DNA of 64,000 bases from Streptomyces sp. RPT161 (GTDB taxonomy: Bacteria > Actinomycetota > Actinomycetes > Streptomycetales > Streptomycetaceae): contig NZ_JAPZVN010000010.1 of the NCBI RefSeq assembly GCF_027533845.1, positions 124,001 to 188,000 of the forward strand, written 5' to 3'. Both the position numbers and the translations under genes were made by a program. Shown here one piece after another: positions 40,959-54,043 of this stretch. The stretch's first letter is position 1. Every line of letters begins with the position of its first letter. The notes under the pieces were generated by a model that worked only from the letters and a program-made list of their open reading frames with translations, ran no database searches and was not told the origin of the DNA.

Positions 40959-41420
40959 TCAGGAACAAACGAGGGCGAGGACCTCGTCACGTAGGGGGTC
41001 GACGGCCTCCTGGGTGGGGTCCTCGACATTGAGGCGGAGCAGGGGTTCGGTGTTGGAGGGGCGGAGTTTGAACCAGCGGCCGTCGCCGAGGGTGACCGTC
41101 AGTCCGTCGAGCCGGTCGGTGGTCACGCCGTCGAACTGCCCGTACGCGGCCTCGACTTCGTCGAGCTTTGCGGGTACGTCGGCGACTTCGGAGTTGATCT
41201 CGCCCGAGGCGGCATAGCGGGAGTAGCCCGCGACCAGTTCGGACAGCGGCCGGTCCTGTTCGCCGAGGGCGGCCAGGACGTGGAGGGCGGTGAGCATGCC
41301 GGTGTCGGCTCGCCAGACGTCGCGGAAGTAGTAGTGGCCGGAGTGCTCGCCGCCGAGGACGGCGTCATGTTCGGCCATCAGGGCCTTCATGAAGGAGTGG
41401 CCAACCCGGCTGCGGATCGG
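40959..41420 (-). pseudogene. C-terminal fragment of phosphomannomutase/phosphoglucomutase
   Basis: About 150 residues of an alpha-D-phosphohexomutase: RVGHSFMKALMAEHDAVLGG, the substrate loop GGEHSGHYYF, ADTGMLTALHVLAALG, and the phosphate-binding RPSNTEPLLRLNVE. The N-terminal three domains with the phospho-Ser loop are missing. Upstream sequence in another frame (MESFERARLDAYFAKL) belongs to something else, so this is a deletion fusion and not functional. Confidence 0.75.
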
Positions 41421-41532
41421 GATTCCGCCGTGTGAGCTTGGCGAAGTAGGCGTCCAGCCGGGCGCGTTCGAAGGATTCCATGGCAGTTCCCTCTCATCCG
41501 TCAGTGCGGATTCGTGCATGGAAAGGCTGGGT

Positions 41533-42009
41533 TCAGATGGTGCGGGCGAGACCGAACAGCAGCCGATCCGCGGCAAGTTCGGCGTCCAGGTAGGCGTCGA
41601 CGCGGGCGGCGTCAGCGGACGGGGGCAGTGCGTCCAGGCCGACCATCACGACGGCCTCGCCGGATCGGGCGACCAGTGCGGTCCAGCGAGGGTGGGTGGG
41701 GAGCCGCAGGCCGTAGCGGCTGCCGTGGAAGCGCATCAGCACCCGGTCGCCGACGACCTGAAGCCGCCCCGGCAGGACGGGCATGGGGTCTCGGGCATTG
41801 GCCAGGCCGCCGAGACAGTCGGCGATCACCCGCATCCGGGCCTCGATCGCCTCGGGGGCATCGTGGTCGGTGCGGCCGGGCGGTTGGGCGAGCAGGACGT
41901 GCCCGACATGCTGACCGTCCAGCGCCATCCCGGGCCAGGTCCATGCCCCGAGGGAGGCCAGCAGCCCCGGCCTCGGGCCGGTGAGCGACGACGGAGTGCG
42001 GGTCAGCAT
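41533..42009 (-). CDS. Unknown protein coupled to the ATP-binding regulator
   Basis: 158-aa soluble protein with an alpha/beta pattern: GLLASLGAWTWPGMALDG, QHVGHVLLAQPPGRTDHDAP, LMRFHGSRYGLRLPTH and a C-terminal AYLDAELAADRLLFGLAR. ATG 42009 overlaps the end of the ATPase gene by 7 bases (42003-42009), so translation is coupled. Third gene of a three-gene operon. I do not recognise the family. Confidence 0.6.
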   Translation of the reverse strand: MLTRTPSSLTGPRPGLLASLGAWTWPGMALDGQHVGHVLLAQPPGRTDHDAPEAIEARMRVIADCLGGLANARDPMPVLPGRLQVVGDRVLMRFHGSRYGLRLPTHPRWTALVARSGEAVVMVGLDALPPSADAARVDAYLDAELAADRLLFGLARTI

Positions 42010-42419
42010 GCCGCCTCCCGGACGGCGACGGCCTTGAACCGCAACCAGACAATCTTCCCGGACGGCTGCCGGTCGCAGATGCCCCACCCATCCGCGAGTT
42101 CCTGGACGATCAGCAGCCCTCGTCCGGAGGCGTCCGACGGCTTCGGGTGGCGGACCTGTGGCCGGTGGCCGTCGCGGCGGCTGTCGTGTACTTCCAGGAG
42201 TACGAAGTCGTCGTCTTCGACGGTCAGCCTGACCAGGAAGCCGATGCCGGGCTCGGTGCCGTGAATGAGCGCGTTGGTGGCCAACTCGGAGACACACAGC
42301 TGGATGTCGTCTGCGGCCCCGTCCAGTCCCCAGGCCATCAAGGTTGCGGTGGTGAACTTCCTGGCTAGGCTTACGGATTCGCGCTTTGACTCGAAGTACT
42401 TCTGCATCACCTCGGGCAT
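42003..42419 (-). CDS. ATP-binding protein, anti-sigma-factor kinase type (HATPase_c_2)
   Basis: 138-aa RsbW-like GHKL ATPase, a large family in Streptomyces. Markers: RESVSLARKFTTATLMAWGL, the N-box CVSELATNALIHGT, the D-box VHDSRRDGHRPQ with G..P, and SGRGLLIVQELADGWG. It may act as an anti-sigma factor or protein kinase; no sigma or anti-anti-sigma gene is adjacent. ATG 42419 is used with GTGAGG upstream; GTG 42431 is the alternative. Middle gene of an operon with 42428 and 41533. Confidence 0.85.
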   Translation of the reverse strand: MPEVMQKYFESKRESVSLARKFTTATLMAWGLDGAADDIQLCVSELATNALIHGTEPGIGFLVRLTVEDDDFVLLEVHDSRRDGHRPQVRHPKPSDASGRGLLIVQELADGWGICDRQPSGKIVWLRFKAVAVREAAC

Positions 42420-42427
42420 GCCGGGCC

Positions 42428-42847
42428 TCACGTCTCCGCGTCCAAGGCCCGGCGGCGAGGCCGGGCCGCGCTGGACGGGCTGGAGAAGCGATGGCCGACT
42501 GATCGGTGCTGGCGGCTGCTGCGGATCAGCAGCAGCCGTGCTCCAGCCGCCTCGATCTGTTTCTCCCGGGCGGCGGCTATCGCCTTGGGGCCGAGGTGGG
42601 AGGCGGACGGCAGCACGACGCCGTAGGTGTCGGGTAGTGCCAGGACATCCAGCAGCCCGATGAACGCCACCTCCTGCGAGGTGGAGCGTTCGGTGAACAC
42701 CCCGGACAGCAGGAGCTCGTGCTGGCGGCAGTACTCGGCCAGCGACGCGGCCAAGGCCGCTTGGCGGGTCGCCGAGGCCCGCGCCAGCCGCAGGTAGCCA
42801 TAGACGACCGGACCTGCGACCTGGCGATGCTCAGTGAGCGGTTCCAT
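42428..42847 (-). CDS. Degenerate serine-recombinase-like protein
   Basis: 139-aa protein resembling the N-terminal catalytic domain of serine resolvases: VVYGYLRLARASATRQAALA, SLAEYCRQHELLLSGVFTER, GLLDVLALPDTYGVVLPSAS, HLGPKAIAAAREKQIEAAGA. The catalytic Ser after YxR is not in its usual place and no DNA-binding C-terminus follows, so it is more likely a regulatory relative than an active recombinase. ATG 42847 assumed. First gene of the operon, divergent from the XRE-TPR gene. Confidence 0.65.
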   Translation of the reverse strand: MEPLTEHRQVAGPVVYGYLRLARASATRQAALAASLAEYCRQHELLLSGVFTERSTSQEVAFIGLLDVLALPDTYGVVLPSASHLGPKAIAAAREKQIEAAGARLLLIRSSRQHRSVGHRFSSPSSAARPRRRALDAET

Positions 42848-43003
42848 GCGTACAACCGTCCAAACAAGACTCGGGAAGAGTGACAACCCGAGCCTGACGT
42901 CTGGTCAGCGTGCCCAGAGTGAACCGCTGTTGCACTTCCGTAGCACTTCCGTCTCCCCGCTTGAGTTCCCGTGCTTCCATGGCGACGCAGAAGGGAGCGA
43001 CGC

Positions 43004-44098
43004 GTGGCGACCGTGCACCATTGGACCGGCCTTGAGGCCCGAGCACTGCGTCTGGCCCTGCGGATGAGCGTCCGCGCGTTCGCCGAACACCTCGGCGTCG
43101 GCATTCGCACCGTCTCCAAGTGGGAAAAGCTCCTCACCGCCACCGAGCCGAGGCCCGACACCCAAGCCATCTTGGACACCGCGCTAGCTCGCGCGGACGC
43201 CGCAGTGCATCTGCGGTTCGAGACAAACCTGTCCGAAGCCGGACGCCCCACACCTGGCCGACGAGTAACGGTCACCGGCCCCAGGGCTTGGGAGTACGAG
43301 TCGTGGACCGACGACCTGGAACGCGTCGTCGTCGCCCTGTCCCGGCAGAACTTCACCTTCGCCGACAACCTGCTGAACCGCTGGCTGGCCCGCTTCAAGC
43401 CAATGCAACTGGATGACAAGGGCCTGTATCTGTTCGCCCGCTCCACCGTCCTGCTCGGCGACCTGCGACGCGACGAAGGCGCCGTGATCGGACCGATGTC
43501 GGCCCAGCACTCCTATGCCGGTGCCCACTCGATCTTCACCCAGCTCGACAACCCCCGCCGCGTCGCCCAACTCGACCTGTCCCTGGCGGTGGTCGCCGAG
43601 ATGTCCGACAAGTTGGAGACCGCAGCCCGCCACTACGAAACCCTCGCCGTCGACGACCGGCTCTCCCGCCGCGACCGAGCACGGGCCAGGTTGTGGGTAG
43701 GCACCGCGCTGAGCAAGGACGGCAACCACGACTATGCCGCCCGCGTCATGCTGGCCGCCACCCGCGACTTCGAGGACCTGGGTGAAGTAGACGACTGGTC
43801 AGTCGCCCACCAAAAACTCGCCCTGGCCCACCGCGGGACCGGCCAGTTGGACCAAGCCCTGCACTTCATCGACATCGCCCGCAGCACCGGCGTGATGGAC
43901 TCGCCCATGCAGCGCGTGCGGTTGGACACCGCCCACGGCCACATCCTGCTGTCCGACCCGGCCACACGGGATGATGGGCTGCGGGTGCTCAACGACGCCG
44001 CGACGCTGGCCGCCAAGGTCGGCCTGAGCCACCAGCTCCGCAGCATCGAGAGCATCCGCAGGATGACCGAGGGGGCAGCCCGCCCCCGGCGACGGTGA
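43004..44098 (+). CDS. XRE-type regulator with TPR-like C-terminus
   Basis: 364-aa regulator. N-terminal helix-turn-helix LALRMSVRAFAEHLGVGIRT followed by VSKWEK; then an about 270-residue array of paired helices (HSIFTQLDNPRRVAQLDLSL, ETAARHYETLAVDDRLSRRD, KLALAHRGTGQLDQALHFID), the typical Streptomyces XRE-TPR layout. It probably senses a ligand or peptide. GTG 43004 follows GAAGGGAGC. The stop overlaps the next frame (GTGA at 44095), tying it to YdcF- and WbqC-like genes. Confidence 0.85.
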   Translation: MATVHHWTGLEARALRLALRMSVRAFAEHLGVGIRTVSKWEKLLTATEPRPDTQAILDTALARADAAVHLRFETNLSEAGRPTPGRRVTVTGPRAWEYESWTDDLERVVVALSRQNFTFADNLLNRWLARFKPMQLDDKGLYLFARSTVLLGDLRRDEGAVIGPMSAQHSYAGAHSIFTQLDNPRRVAQLDLSLAVVAEMSDKLETAARHYETLAVDDRLSRRDRARARLWVGTALSKDGNHDYAARVMLAATRDFEDLGEVDDWSVAHQKLALAHRGTGQLDQALHFIDIARSTGVMDSPMQRVRLDTAHGHILLSDPATRDDGLRVLNDAATLAAKVGLSHQLRSIESIRRMTEGAARPRRR

Positions 44099-44112
44099 CC
44101 AGGGAGAAGCGA

Positions 44113-44781
44113 GTGGCGGACAACCAGCGGGCCATCACCGATGACCAGCGGCAGCAGGCCAAGCTGATCTGGGACTACCACCAGATGCACCACGACGCGA
44201 GGCCGGTCGACGCCGCGATCGGCCTGGGCAGCCACGACCTTGGGGTGCCCGCCTTCTGTGCCCAGCTGTATCGCGCCGGTCTCTTCCCGACCCTGGTATT
44301 CACTGGTGGCCCCAACCCCACCGCCCCTGAACGGTTCCCGCGCGGCGAGGCCGTGCACTTCCGCGAGCACGCGCTGGAGCTCGGTGTGCCGGATGAGGCG
44401 ATCCTGCTGGAGCCCAAGGCTCGCAACACGGGCCAGAACATCACCTTCTCCCGGGAGGTGCTGGCAACAGCCGGAATCAGCCCGGCCTCGGTGCTGCTGG
44501 TCTCCATGCCGTATATGGAGCGACGCTCCTTCGCCACCGCCTGCAAGCTGTGGCCCGAAGTCGAGGTGATCTGTGCCTCGGAGCCGCTGGAGTTCGACGA
44601 CTACCTCAAGAGCATCGGCGACGAAAAGCTCGTCACCGACCAACTCGTCGGCGACCTGCAACGGGTGATCGAGTATCCGAAGCTCGGGTTCGCCATCGAG
44701 CAAGACGTCCCGGAGGACGTGCATGCCGCGTACGAATCTCTCATCCGCGAAGGCTTCACCAGCCGCCTTATCAGCTCCTGA
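44113..44781 (+). CDS. YdcF-like (DUF218) protein
   Basis: 222-aa protein of the YdcF/SanA family: AAIGLGSHDLGVPAFCAQLY, LFPTLVFTGGPNP, LLEPKARNTGQNITFSRE and LLVSMPYMERRSFATACKLW. The fold binds nucleotide-like ligands and has been tied to cell-envelope work in other bacteria; no signal or membrane segment here. GTG 44113 was chosen because AGGGAG lies 6 bases upstream; GTG 44095 overlapping the previous stop is also possible. Second gene of the XRE-TPR cassette. Confidence 0.8.
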   Translation: MADNQRAITDDQRQQAKLIWDYHQMHHDARPVDAAIGLGSHDLGVPAFCAQLYRAGLFPTLVFTGGPNPTAPERFPRGEAVHFREHALELGVPDEAILLEPKARNTGQNITFSREVLATAGISPASVLLVSMPYMERRSFATACKLWPEVEVICASEPLEFDDYLKSIGDEKLVTDQLVGDLQRVIEYPKLGFAIEQDVPEDVHAAYESLIREGFTSRLISS

Positions 44782-45530
44782 CCTGCCGCCTCCGGGCGGG
44801 CTGTGTGCGATCCACCAGCCCAACCTGTTCCCGCGGCTGACGACACTGGCCAAGCTGTTCGCAGCGGACTACTGGATCGTCCTCGACGACGTCCAGTTCG
44901 CCCGCCGCGACTACCAGCACCGCACCCGCCTGGCGGCCTTGGAGGACCCGCAACGGCGCCAGTGGCTCACTATCCCCACCCACCTGCCCCGAGGCCGCCA
45001 GACGCCCGTCTGCGAGGCCGTGATCGCCGCCCCAGCCGGGTGGCGACGGCGTCTGGCTCAGATGCTGCCGCACTACTACCGGGCCAGTCTGCACTGGCTG
45101 GCCATTGGTCGCGCACTCGCGCCGGTCCTCGACCTGTTCACCACCACGGACAAGACTGCCGAGGTCGCCGAGACGTCCACCCGCCTGTCGCTGGACTTCT
45201 CGGCTGGACTGGCCGGATCCTCCGCAGCAGCCACCTGCCTGCTCGGCCCGGCCGATCGAGGCGACTCGCCGACCTCGCCGATGCCACCGGCGCCCGGGGC
45301 TACCTATGCGGGACGGGCGGCATGAAATACCTGGAGAGCGACCTGTTCACCGCCCGGGACATCGCCGTGATCCCGTTCCGGACCCCAGCCAACGGGCTGT
45401 GGCAGAGCGGGCGCACGATCAGCGCGGTCCACTCCCTGATGTGCCTCGGGCCCAAGGCCCTGGCCGAACAATTGCGGACCGTTGCCACCAGCCAGGGCGG
45501 GTTGCAGCCCGCATGTCTGCGCGGCACCGA
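44723..45530 (+). pseudogene. WbqC-family gene with a frameshift
   Basis: Starts inside the end of the YdcF gene. First frame: GLCAIHQPNLFPRLTTLAKL, YWIVLDDVQFARRDYQHRTR and LAQMLPHYYRASLHWLAIGR. Near 45205 the frame changes to LGWTGRILRSSHLPARPGRS, LADLADATGARGYLCGTGG and MKYLESDLFTARDIAVIPFR. WbqC proteins are found in surface sugar and glycan loci. A one-base lesion separates the halves. It forms a cassette with the XRE-TPR and YdcF genes. The true C-terminus is unclear but lies before the palindrome at 45533. Confidence 0.65.
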
Positions 45531-45532
45531 AC

Positions 45533-45564
45533 ACTCCCCCCTCCTCGATCGAGGAGGGGGGAGT
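45533..45564. terminator. Perfect 32-bp palindrome, probable two-way terminator
   Basis: ACTCCCCCCTCCTCGA followed at once by its exact reverse complement. It sits between the plus-strand WbqC gene and the minus-strand gene ending at 45615, so it can terminate both. Confidence 0.7.
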
Positions 45565-45614
45565 ACGCGTCAACGTACCCAGTCGCGTACGACTCGGCGT
45601 ACGATGACTGTCGG

Positions 45615-46020
45615 TCAGGTGTTTTCCCGGCGGATCATCTCCCGCAGGCTGATGCGGGCGGCGGCCAGGTCCTCTTCGGTCTCCTCCAGCTTCGCTGCCA
45701 ACTCGGCGTTCTCCCGCTTGAGCGCGTCGCGCTCGGCGGCAAGTTCTTGGTTCTGGCGGGTCAGTTCCTCGATGCGGGCGACCCGGTCGCCCGCGGCACC
45801 AAGAGACACTTTGCCCACGTGTTGGCCGTGCGGCCATGCTCGATGGCCAGCCCACGGCCGAGGTCGCCAGCGACCAAGGGACAGCCGCCGGTCAACAAGG
45901 TGTACCGGACGGCGTTGGGGCTCTTGAGGTACAGCAGCTCCATCGCGGCACCGGCCAGGACCAGCAGCAGCGACAGCCGGGGTACCAGCCCGGCTGCCTG
46001 GCGCAGGTACAGCGCGGCAT
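45615..46020 (-). pseudogene. Frameshifted membrane / coiled-coil protein
   Basis: First frame, after an in-frame TAG near 46026, reads ALYLRQAAGLVPRLSLLLVL and GAAMELLYLKSPNAVRYTLL (one or two membrane helices) and GDLGRGLAIEHGRTANTWAK. A shift near 45800 leads into VARIEELTRQNQELAAERDA and AELAAKLEETEEDLAAARIS, a coiled coil ending at 45615. Family not recognised. Confidence 0.5.
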
Positions 46021-46346
46021 CCCGCGCCTACGGGTAGAAGTTCCCGGTTTTGCTTGCGATCCCACCTCCGACCTCCAGCAATGGAAGCAGGACACCTACC
46101 GGGATCCTGCACGTAGCCGCCACCACACCGCATCCCGTAGAGAACTCGAGCGAAGACTCATGTAAACGCTCACTCAGGTCTGGTGGCTCTTGGACCACTG
46201 GCGTACGGCACACGTTCCGGCCATCACGCCTTCGAGTGGCGTGCAGAGGGCCGCCTGGGGGTAGCACTTGCTGGCTGCCGATGGTCGTGATGGCCGGCAG
46301 GCAGTACTCGACAGGGACATCAGGTCAGCGGAACAGGAGTTAGCCC
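46021..46346. other. Upstream region of the coactosin-like gene
   Basis: About 325 bases with no supported gene. CAGGAG at 46334-46339 is the ribosome binding site of the next gene. Confidence 0.4.
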
Positions 46347-46742
46347 GTGGAAATCGCTCCGGAAGTCAAGGAAGCGTACGAGAAGATCAGGCTCCCCCAG
46401 TCCGATCTCAAGTGGGTCACCTTCAAGTACGACGACTCCAAGGTGGTCGTCGATACATCCGGCACCGACCACGGCGCTTTCCTAGACATGCTCCCTGACG
46501 ATGCGCCGCTGTACGCCTACTACCGCGTGGAAGTCAAGGCATCCGACGCAACGCGCACCAAGTTCGTCTTCGTCTCCTGGGTCGGCGAAAACGTATCGCC
46601 CTTAACGAAGGGCAAGGTCTCCGTCGACAAGCCCCAGATCAAGTCGATCATCAAGGACTTCTCGATCGAAATCGCGACGTCCGATCAGGGCGACCTCACC
46701 TACGACAAGATCCTCGACACGATCGGCTCCGCCGACCACTGA
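46347..46742 (+). CDS. Coactosin-like protein (ADF-H actin-binding fold)
   Basis: 131-aa protein that reads as an actin-depolymerising-factor homology domain of the coactosin type. Blocks: LKWVTFKYDDSKVV (residues 21-34), DDAPLYAYYRVEV (51-63), RTKFVFVSWVGENVSPLTKG (70-89), then DKPQIKSIIKDFSIEI (94-109) and SD...L..D.I. Eukaryotic coactosin, from memory, has WVTFKYDGS, RLFAFVRF, RSKFALITWIGENVSGL and DK...K.VV..F in the same order and spacing, at 142 aa. Lys72 corresponds to the Lys of RSKF tied to actin binding. GTG 46347 has an AGGAG site 8 bases upstream, and codon use is GC-rich though softer than neighbours (AAG/GAC-rich), so it is a normal expressed bacterial gene. Partner unknown: bacterial actin-like filaments or a host target. 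Confidence 0.85.
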   Translation: MEIAPEVKEAYEKIRLPQSDLKWVTFKYDDSKVVVDTSGTDHGAFLDMLPDDAPLYAYYRVEVKASDATRTKFVFVSWVGENVSPLTKGKVSVDKPQIKSIIKDFSIEIATSDQGDLTYDKILDTIGSADH

Positions 46743-47126
46743 CCGGGGCCCGGGGCCCGGGCCCGCACAGGGAGGAACCGGCACGCGCGCCGATACCTCC
46801 GCCGCTGCGGGCCCAGCCCCCGGGCGGAGTCGCTGCCCTCGCGTCGTCGGTCCGGGCGCCGAACGGGCCGGTCAGGCCCGGTGCGGGGGCGCCGGTGGCG
46901 TTCAGGGCGACCTGATGGTGGAGTTGGACCGGACTCTCGCGGGTGAGCTGGTGGCCGGGGCGCCCGCGCCTGACGCCTGTACTGGACCTACGGCCAGCAG
47001 AACCGGGCACGGCGGGGCCCCCGGGAATGGGCACGGAACCCCGCGTTCAAGCCTCTGGGTGTGCGAGCACGCTCGATCACGCCGTGCGGGCGATGAGCTT
47101 TCCCGGGCCCCGGTCTGACAGGCGGA
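46743..47126. other. Intergenic region with GC-rich hairpin
   Basis: No gene seen. Just after the coactosin-like gene, the self-complementary run CGGGGCCCGGGGCCCGGGCC (46745-46764) may act as its terminator. Confidence 0.4.
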
Positions 47127-47960
47127 TCAGCGTAGTCCGGCGAAGAGATCGTTCTCGGGTACGGCCGCGCCGGTGGCGTCCTGGACACGTACGAAGGTCT
47201 CCATGCCCATCAACTCGCCGAACCTCTCCTTGCCCATTTTGAGGAAGAAGATGTTCTCGCCCTGACTGGCGTGCGCGGCCAGCGCGTCGAATTTCTGACC
47301 GCTGAACGCGGTGGTGTCCACCCACGTGGTGACCGCATCGTCGGGCAGGCCTATCTCGGCCATCGCGGCGGCCTCGGCAGGATCCGGCTCCGGCATGTCC
47401 TCATGGAACTCGCGCATGATCTCGCCGAACCGCTGCATCATCGAGCGGGGCACCGTCGTCCAGTACACCTTCGGTGTCAGCGCGGTCATCTTCAGCGCCG
47501 CCATCGTGATGCGGTTGGCCTGGATGTGGTCGGGGTGGCCGTAGAAGCCGTTTTCGTCGTAGGTGACGACCACATCGGGTCGGTAATGCCGCATGAGTTC
47601 CGCGAGTCGGGCGGCGCCTTCCTCCACGGGGGTCTTCCAGAAGGATCCCGGGGCGTCGTTGCTCGGCCAGCCCGTCATCCCGGAGTCGGCATAGTCCAGC
47701 ATCTCCAGATCGCTGACCTTCAGGACGTCACAGCTCGCCTCGAGTTCTTGACGGCGCATCAAGGCAACGGCCGCCGGATCGTGCCCGGGATCACCCGGCT
47801 TGACACCTCCCGGTCCATCACCGCAGCCGCCGTCGGTACACGTCACCAGGACCGTACGGATGCCCTCCGCCGCGTACCGCGCGAGGACCCCTCCGGTTCC
47901 GGTGGCCTCATCGTCGGGGTGGGCGTGCACTGCCATGAGCGTCAAGGGCCGGTCAGTCAT
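47127..47960 (-). CDS. PIG-L family zinc deacetylase (GlcNAc-PI / MshB-like)
   Basis: 277-aa LmbE/PIG-L amidohydrolase. Zinc ligands and base lie in HAHPDDEATGTGG (H-P-D-D-E) and GFYGHPDHIQANR (third His); LVTCTDGGCGDGPGGVKPG and RRQELEASCDVLKVSDLEML are family blocks. Relatives remove acetyl groups from N-acetylglucosaminyl conjugates (mycothiol or antibiotic sugars). The central insert differs from MshB and Mca, so the substrate is open. Cytoplasmic. ATG 47960 has AGGAGG 8 bases upstream. Stands alone. Confidence 0.9.
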   Translation of the reverse strand: MTDRPLTLMAVHAHPDDEATGTGGVLARYAAEGIRTVLVTCTDGGCGDGPGGVKPGDPGHDPAAVALMRRQELEASCDVLKVSDLEMLDYADSGMTGWPSNDAPGSFWKTPVEEGAARLAELMRHYRPDVVVTYDENGFYGHPDHIQANRITMAALKMTALTPKVYWTTVPRSMMQRFGEIMREFHEDMPEPDPAEAAAMAEIGLPDDAVTTWVDTTAFSGQKFDALAAHASQGENIFFLKMGKERFGELMGMETFVRVQDATGAAVPENDLFAGLR

Positions 47961-48687
47961 GAAACAGTCCTCCTGCAGAAATACTTCTCGATCCGAGTGC
48001 GCGGCGGGCGTACCGCGATCCCGAGGGCCCGGATCCTGACGGGGCGACGACCTTGTGGTCTTCGTGTTCTCCGCGCGTGCCGCCCCGGTCCCTCGGTCGA
48101 TGCAACAGTGCTGGCGGGAGCGGTTGTTCCCGGCACGCACGGAACATCTCGACACGTCGGGTTCGCAGGGCGGTCGGCTTCGCCAGTGGGCCGCGGGCAT
48201 AACGGTGATACGGCACGGCTGCGTGCCTCCGGGCACTCTTTGGGTACGCCCCGAGCGCCCGGGCAGACGCGATTCCTTCCAGTCCGCGCGCTCTCCGTTA
48301 CCTCACTGTTGCGGAGGAAGAGCTACCGACTACGCCCCAGAAGCCTTACGGCACTGTCGTCAGTCCCGCCGGTGTCGATGAACGTCAGTTTCCGAGCACA
48401 GACTCCTCGGTCATCGGCTCACTGCCGCATAGTGCCGAGGCCGGTCTTCGCTGCAAGGTCCGGGCCCGTCGACAGCCATGACATCTGGTACCTGCTGAGG
48501 GAACGCGACGCATGGGTCGCGGCCCGCTAGGTGAGCAAAACCGGCGAGGTCACCGGGTGCCCACCGCGTGCACGCAGAGCGCGGGTGCCGCCGTCGATGC
48601 AGGTGAGGCCGAACATGCTCACCACGTCCGGCGCATCGCGGAAGACACAGCCAGCGGACTGGCCCTTGAACGTGCCGCCGCAGCGGT
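47961..48687. other. Region without a supported gene
   Basis: About 730 bases. Promoter of the deacetylase gene at the left edge. A short plus-strand tail DIWYLLRERDAWVAAR ends at 48530 and may be a relic. Confidence 0.35.
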
Positions 48688-52904: not shown

Positions 52905-53450
52905 GTGAAACTTAGAATCAGAAGTTCCATCCTGGCGGGGGCGCTGGCCTTGATCTCCACGTCCGGCCTGGTGGCCGTGAACGCGCCGGCGGCGCACGCC
53001 GCATCCTGCGGTTCGGACCGCGTCCTGGCGAGCAACCCGACCGACCTCTACGGGTACAACCTCGGCGTCATCTCCAACAAGCACCTCGGCAAGCTGTACA
53101 TCGGGTACATCCCGAGCTGCCGGATGGAGTACGCGGAGGTGCACTGGGACCAGAACGCCGACCTGTCCATGATCGGCGACAACTACATCTGGCTGCAGGA
53201 CGCCCACGGCCACCAGGCGGGGAAGGCGGACATCGGGAGCCTGGGCCAGTACGGCGAGTACGGGTCCTCGAACCTGGTGCCCATCGACAGCTTCGGCTAC
53301 AGCTACAGCCAGCCGAGGCTGCACATCGGGCTCACCTTCAGCGGCGGCAGGACCCCGACCTGTCGCCCGACCGACTACTACGGCAACGGCCACAGCTTCG
53401 CCACCGGCGGCAGCGAGGCCAGCCACAACTGGCAGGTGTGCGGCATATGA
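52905..53450 (+). CDS. Secreted protein of unknown function
   Basis: 181-aa exported protein. GTG 52905 gives a Sec signal (KLRIRSSILAGALALISTS, cleavage near AHAAS). The mature part is beta-rich: SCGSDRVLASNPTDLYGYNL, KLYIGYIPSCRMEYAEVHW, with four Cys that could form two disulfides. A DUF2690-like pattern (C....L...IGY...C...WA.V) is possible. Its stop overlaps the ATG of the next gene (ATGA), so the two secreted proteins are made together and may work as a pair. Confidence 0.7.
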   Translation: MKLRIRSSILAGALALISTSGLVAVNAPAAHAASCGSDRVLASNPTDLYGYNLGVISNKHLGKLYIGYIPSCRMEYAEVHWDQNADLSMIGDNYIWLQDAHGHQAGKADIGSLGQYGEYGSSNLVPIDSFGYSYSQPRLHIGLTFSGGRTPTCRPTDYYGNGHSFATGGSEASHNWQVCGI

Positions 53451-54043
53451 AGCAGAAGCTCAGGACCGCGGTGGCGGCGGGTGTCATGACCATGGGCTCC
53501 CTGGCCGGCACGCTCGCCCTGTCGGGGACGGCGCACGCCGAGACCTACCAGCGCAACGTCCAGCTGCAGGACCTCCAGGACCAGGGCATCGACTGCCTGG
53601 ACAGCAACTACAATGGGTCGCTCTACATCCTGCCCTGCAACGGCGGCAGCTTCCAGCGCTGGAACGTCACGTCCTACGCCCCGGACGTGAACAACTACTA
53701 CAGCAGGGTGCAGATCCAGAACGTCCAGACCGGCCGTTGTCTGCGGGTCCAGTTCTTCGCCGGAAACGGCTACGAGGCCAAGACCGACAGCTGCGACGCG
53801 AGCAACTACCGGGACCAGTGGAACATGACCTGGGTCGGAAACACCCCGGGCAACCCTTCCAACAGCTTCCAGTTCCTCAACTGGCAGCCATCAGGCCCGC
53901 TGTCGGGCCGCAGCGAGTTCGACTTCTGCCTGGACCGGGGACAGGCAGGCCACGCGAACAACATGGTCTTCGACATCGGCCAGTTCCAGAAGACCTGTAA
54001 CAACCACTCCAACAAGTGGCAGATCTGGAGCATGGTCCACTAG
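53447..54043 (+). CDS. Secreted ricin-type beta-trefoil protein
   Basis: 198-aa exported protein. ATG 53447 overlaps the upstream stop; signal peptide MKQKLRTAVAAGVMTMGSLA with cleavage near AHAET. The mature part has trefoil features: CLDSNYNGSLYILPCNGGSF, QRWNV, QTGRCLRVQF and NKWQIWSM, i.e. Q.W/CL.. repeats with Cys pairs. Such domains bind sugars. No catalytic domain, so a lectin-like or inhibitor role with the coupled upstream protein is likely (inference). Confidence 0.75.
   Translation: MKQKLRTAVAAGVMTMGSLAGTLALSGTAHAETYQRNVQLQDLQDQGIDCLDSNYNGSLYILPCNGGSFQRWNVTSYAPDVNNYYSRVQIQNVQTGRCLRVQFFAGNGYEAKTDSCDASNYRDQWNMTWVGNTPGNPSNSFQFLNWQPSGPLSGRSEFDFCLDRGQAGHANNMVFDIGQFQKTCNNHSNKWQIWSMVH

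Follow-up and report, generated by a model that had tools for sequence, protein, structure and literature searches.

A coactosin-like protein in a streptomycete genome with no true actin found suggests that its gene came from a eukaryote

In this study, we analysed a 64,000-nucleotide stretch of the genome of Streptomyces sp. RPT161 (contig NZ_JAPZVN010000010.1, positions 124,001 to 188,000 of the forward strand; hereafter the window), which carries a gene for a small coactosin-type protein of the ADF-H family. A preliminary description, made from the sequence alone, had reported a reading frame with a GTG start, 131 codons and a stop, and these boundaries are exact (Table 1). The start is fixed by an in-frame TAG at positions 46341-46343, two codons 5' of the GTG at 46347, which is moreover the sole listed start ahead of the Pfam match; the Shine–Dalgarno sequence that had been claimed is likewise present. 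The gene contains no intron. Its GC content by codon position is 55.0/35.1/85.5%. The third-position value (GC3) falls within the range of the 38 scored window genes, of which it is one (mean 86.8, sd 3.9), although no other gene in this set has a total GC as low as its 58.3%. A simple promoter scan of positions 45900-47100 gave no entry 5' of the gene. Six bases 3' of the stop codon begins a G+C-rich inverted repeat, which could terminate the transcript; it was not among the results of a terminator scan of the same region.

The product had been described as a coactosin-like protein, and this identity is borne out by the PF00241 profile, by the match to human coactosin and by comparison of scores. 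Coactosin, which characteristically binds F-actin and not G-actin, acts on actin filaments in animals and amoebae. PF00241, the ADF-H profile, covers the full domain (positions 1-124/125) and scores 98.2 bits, far above its cut-off of 22.4 (E 3.7e-28), human coactosin-like protein matches at E 4.5e-21, and the protein scores nearer coactosin than cofilin, drebrin or Abp1; no NCBIfam model came close to its cut-off. All four blocks singled out earlier, WVTFKYD, D..LYA..R, R.KF...WVGENVS.L and DK..IK.I...F, can be recognised in the product and line up with human coactosin, and the predicted structure has the ADF-H fold, as had been proposed. Judged from sequence and model, the protein is almost certainly of the coactosin type in both identity and fold. 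As the reading frame ends after 131 codons, the product is a single domain and not the N-terminal ADF-H part of a longer protein, and its gene is the only PF00241 match in the genome. The actin-binding lysine invoked in the preliminary description is K72, the counterpart of human K75, and the pair R70 and K72 aligns with R73 and K75 of human COTL1, a numbering which we take to be that of the full chain. These two residues are reported to belong to the F-actin site of coactosin (PMC3890291), and F-actin binding through R70/K72 is a clear prediction for the window protein.

Table 1. Coordinates of the coactosin-type gene, its signals and the surrounding blocks
Feature	Position	Strand	Basis or context
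Flanking block: ATP-binding protein, HTH protein, YdcF/DUF218, WbqC	41432..45441		on Streptomyces plasmids and in genome G001
1.6-kb segment with the ADF-H gene	45442..47033		no listed match in two same-genus genomes
Possible remnant ORF, charged coiled-coil	45615..45818	-	sub-threshold Pfam ZapB match only
Shine–Dalgarno AGGAG, 7 nt ahead of GTG	46335..46339	+	sequence
Coactosin-type ADF-H protein, 131 aa, GTG start; R70/K72 = human COTL1 R73/K75	46347..46742	+	profile, sequence, predicted fold
G+C-rich inverted repeat, 20-nt arms, 90% complementary, 38-nt gap	46748..46825	+
Right flanking block with PIG-L family deacetylase gene (47127-47960, -)	47034..48150

The view that ADF-H proteins are eukaryotic, on which the preliminary description relied, is not supported, since cofilin-type homologues from Streptomyces are already in print, in the PDB and in annotation. 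A 2009 survey places a cofilin homologue 'only in Streptomyces' and calls it a 'probable HGT' (horizontal gene transfer; PMC2651865), PDB entry 5ivu is entitled 'Crystal Structure of Streptomyces griseoflavus Cofilin', and three of six Streptomyces plasmid matches are annotated as 'cofilin family protein'. Like the window protein, these are single-domain ADF-H proteins of Streptomycetaceae, and some members of the family are plasmid-borne. A recent fungal transfer into another genome (G031) was considered and dropped, its match 5ivu being the S. griseoflavus cofilin. In a literature search with slight coverage of subscription journals, the papers listed included no title or opening of an abstract on a bacterial coactosin, and none on what bacterial cofilins do. 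Bacterial ADF-H proteins were already known, and it is the member of the coactosin branch that is new, as far as we have seen. The window protein also differs from its eukaryotic relatives: human COTL1 (PDB 1t2l, 1t3y, 1vfq) ends in KKAGGANY, whereas the window protein, bacterial, of 131 aa and from a genome with no true actin found, ends in DTIGSADH, which does not match. The coactosin of the eukaryote Entamoeba histolytica (PDB 4liz) scores 49.3 bits with it, compared with 77.7 for human coactosin. The ADF-H domains of drebrin and Abp1 (5y1z, 1x67, 1hqz) lie on the same side of the ADF-H tree, but score 36 bits compared with 78 for coactosin; in these proteins the domain stands at the start of a larger protein.

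The preliminary description had suggested a transferred gene, and the phylogeny, together with the single copy, upholds this. Our first trees comprised 30 rows, namely the window protein, 19 other bacterial rows from the 36 PF00241 matches described below, PDB 5ivu and nine eukaryotic rows; a second tree and the clade tests used 27 rows, the long or odd L013, L005 and L059 being left out, and the remaining matches, including the fragments or broken-looking genes L007, L008/L020, L014, L018 and L052, were scored only. The window protein paired with human coactosin with support of 98/93 and 97/93 in two 30-row runs, on a short branch (0.22-0.25) within the coactosin/drebrin/Abp1 group (99/97 or 100/100), while the other 20 bacterial rows fell on the cofilin side of the 30-row tree. 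In the 27-row approximately unbiased (AU) tests, whose groups were chosen only after inspection of the tree, uniting the window protein in one clade with bacterial cofilins of the 5ivu type (p-AU 8.6e-7), with a divergent bacterial subfamily, the NLTHDEL type described below (2.5e-4), or with the two yeast cofilins (6.2e-6) was rejected. A single clade of all bacterial rows was also rejected (p 2.1e-5 and 2.3e-4); because this result also reflects the spread of the bacterial cofilins themselves, we relied on the narrower tests. What can safely be said is that the window gene is no descendant of the bacterial cofilins that our searches recovered. Its lateral origin is very probable, and it was apparently acquired independently of the cofilin-type genes known in Streptomyces.

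We searched PF00241 in genomes of the window's genus, its family, genus g10 and a phylum-wide sample, together with 14 control genomes. Carriers made up 1/3, 18/394, 18/392 and 1/396 of these sets, respectively, the last being the window's own genome, and no control had a match (0/14). Overall there are 32 carrier genomes, four of them common to the family and genus g10 sets and some assembled into one or two contigs. Homologues of the ADF-H family thus do occur in actinobacteria, but 35 of the 36 matches scored (34 genes, one of which is in two pieces) are nearer cofilin and the window protein alone is nearer coactosin. With the single protein as query, no close relative was found in genome contigs, viral contigs, plasmids or phages; an alignment of three coactosin rows was equally without result in genome and viral contigs, using two short patterns each that distant relatives could escape, as was an alignment of cofilins in viral contigs.

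The cofilin-type genes themselves vary in state and setting. By eye, five of the 34 appear truncated or frame-broken (L007, L008/L020, L014, L018, L052), which suggests that selection on the family as a whole is loose; gain and loss of bacterial ADF-H genes may be rapid. Several ADF-H genes (uncounted) of near-complete assemblies are either plasmid-borne or no more than a few hundred kb from the end of a contig (G321:C1:20832, G247:C1:230676, G247:C2:474887, G229:C1:7916564), a placement that would resemble that of accessory genes on linear replicons. A cofilin-type gene of G344 lies in two frames (L027:6201-6579), with a gene for contractile tail sheath domains about 1 kb away (L027:7557-8546; Phage_sheath_1, Phage_sheath_1C) and an EF-hand protein gene at 3.4 kb. 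A divergent cofilin-side subfamily with the motif NLTHDEL..ALPADEPRLVVHELSFA occurs in L028-L031, L033-L036, L038 and L066:5767-6402; it is without the basic cofilin helix SKDALRR and sits amid stress-type genes of Streptomyces, among them hemerythrin, CBS, CsbD-like, PRC-barrel-like and gas-vesicle-like genes (some labels by eye). Possibly this type is a repurposed ADF-H fold. A 91-aa isoamylase-early-set/AMPK1_CBM-like protein and an SRPBCC-type protein were each seen at 5/18 ADF-H loci.

Around the coactosin-type gene, Streptomyces plasmids account for nine of the ten best matches of the left block (75-79% identity), one of these records, NZ_CP109047.1, being linear, and the G001 copy of this block ends near a relaxase-like ORF (by eye). 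The right block has a 93.7% match on a Streptomyces plasmid record and recurs on another G001 contig; in G001 the window blocks at 41.4-45.4, 47.0-48.2 and 49.4-52.4 kb are found on three separate contigs. In the comparison with the two other genomes of the genus, for which 40/472 and 40/414 first-look candidates were scored, the segment between the blocks had no counterpart among the matches listed (Table 1), and the ADF-H gene is absent from both by PF00241. Judged by these matches, the coactosin-type gene is located in a plasmid-type patchwork. The WbqC gene (44723-45325) looks frame-broken, its Pfam match covering 1-118 of 218 positions and the remainder seeming by eye to lie in another frame, and a C-terminal phosphoglucomutase fragment is present at 40959-41390. 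Apart from the ADF-H gene, no called gene of the 43-48 kb region shares a cluster with the 18 other ADF-H loci. Further along the window, at 52905-54043, two adjoining genes have leader-like starts, the second resembling by eye a ricin-type beta-trefoil lectin.

The PF00022 profile found no true actin in the window's genome. Weak matches to it occur in 21/21 genomes, that is, in 18 carriers and equally in the non-carriers G001, G002 and G006 (single pieces at most 44.7 bits, summed pieces at most 58.2), and in 6/14 controls, including E. coli, B. subtilis and Caulobacter, all of them bacteria that presumably possess MreB or similar actin relatives. The bacterial actin-like filament proposed earlier as a target thus finds no support. 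Profilin and gelsolin models gave nothing in the window's genome, although the controls were silent too, so that absence is not shown. A coactosin-like protein in a genome with no true actin found suggests that its gene was borrowed from a eukaryote. We propose that a streptomycete acquired a single-domain, leaderless coactosin-type ADF-H gene from a eukaryote, separately from the cofilin-type genes. As the F-actin surface is kept and no actin was found at home, the protein would most likely meet the actin of another organism, and release on lysis would suffice to free it. Lysis is common in Streptomyces development. We give this explanation as a whole slightly less than an even chance, and that the protein acts on eukaryotic actin, a reading from sequence, is a somewhat more tentative claim.

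Several observations weigh against this proposal. Support for the pair with human coactosin was 91/76 in the 27-row tree, groupings without the window protein of the five eukaryotic coactosin/drebrin/Abp1 rows (p 0.34) and of the two eukaryotic coactosins (p 0.15) were not rejected. The position of the protein among coactosins is not settled by the tree, and with nine eukaryotic rows a donor cannot be named. The high GC3 could stem from a GC-rich donor. Among the sampled genomes the coactosin type occurs in a single one, too few for a measure of selection or of a conserved neighbourhood. Concerning a way out of the cell, the protein has no leader-like hydrophobic stretch (best 10-residue hydropathy mean in residues 1-29, -0.18), and no secretion or partner gene is among the called or Pfam-searched neighbours. 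Contractile sheath genes (PF04984) are not enriched in carriers (12/18 versus 13/20 non-carriers), for which reason a link to contractile injection was rejected; the window's genome has one such gene, on another contig.

Among the alternatives, the ADF-H scaffold might have been repurposed for an actin-free bacterial role, for example protein or lipid binding. That no true actin was found in the genome would fit this, and the NLTHDEL type, from its setting and its missing helix, suggests that bacterial ADF-H proteins can switch role; however, the window protein retains the coactosin blocks and the R/K pair, its branch is short and it has no conserved neighbour gene, and we regard repurposing as rather unlikely, if a serious contender. 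It is less probable still that the gene is a passenger, captured recently on mobile DNA and intact by chance without benefit. Its solitary occurrence, its position between plasmid-type blocks beside broken-looking genes and the damaged state of 5/34 cofilin-type genes all agree with this, but host-like GC3, a Shine–Dalgarno sequence and a bacterial start codon would need time under selection to arise, unless the donor was GC-rich.

Regulation of a bacterial actin relative, MreB or Mbl, seems improbable. The weak actin-family matches, presumably MreB or Mbl, are the only actin relatives seen, yet non-carriers have matches of the same kind, and the coactosin site suits eukaryotic actin, whose cleft MreB is not known to have. 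Contamination of the assembly with eukaryotic DNA, which the low total GC for the region might have suggested, can practically be dismissed, as the gene has bacterial genes on both sides within a contig of 238,835 bases, in a 7,686,396-base genome that is 100% complete and 0.08% contaminated, and combines bacterial start signals and host GC3 with the absence of an intron.

A second, apparently separately acquired ADF-H branch in the same bacterial family hints at repeated uptake, and the window protein is small and probably soluble. It is conceivable, if doubtful, that streptomycetes took eukaryotic actin regulators at least twice, once as cofilin and once as coactosin, and that these serve to attack, or to ward off, fungi, amoebae or other soil predators through their actin. 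In that case no bacterial F-actin decorator of this kind, acting without any actin of its own, would be known before the coactosin branch. The window gene would also exemplify the passage of a cytoskeletal regulator, but not of its target, from a eukaryote to a bacterium.
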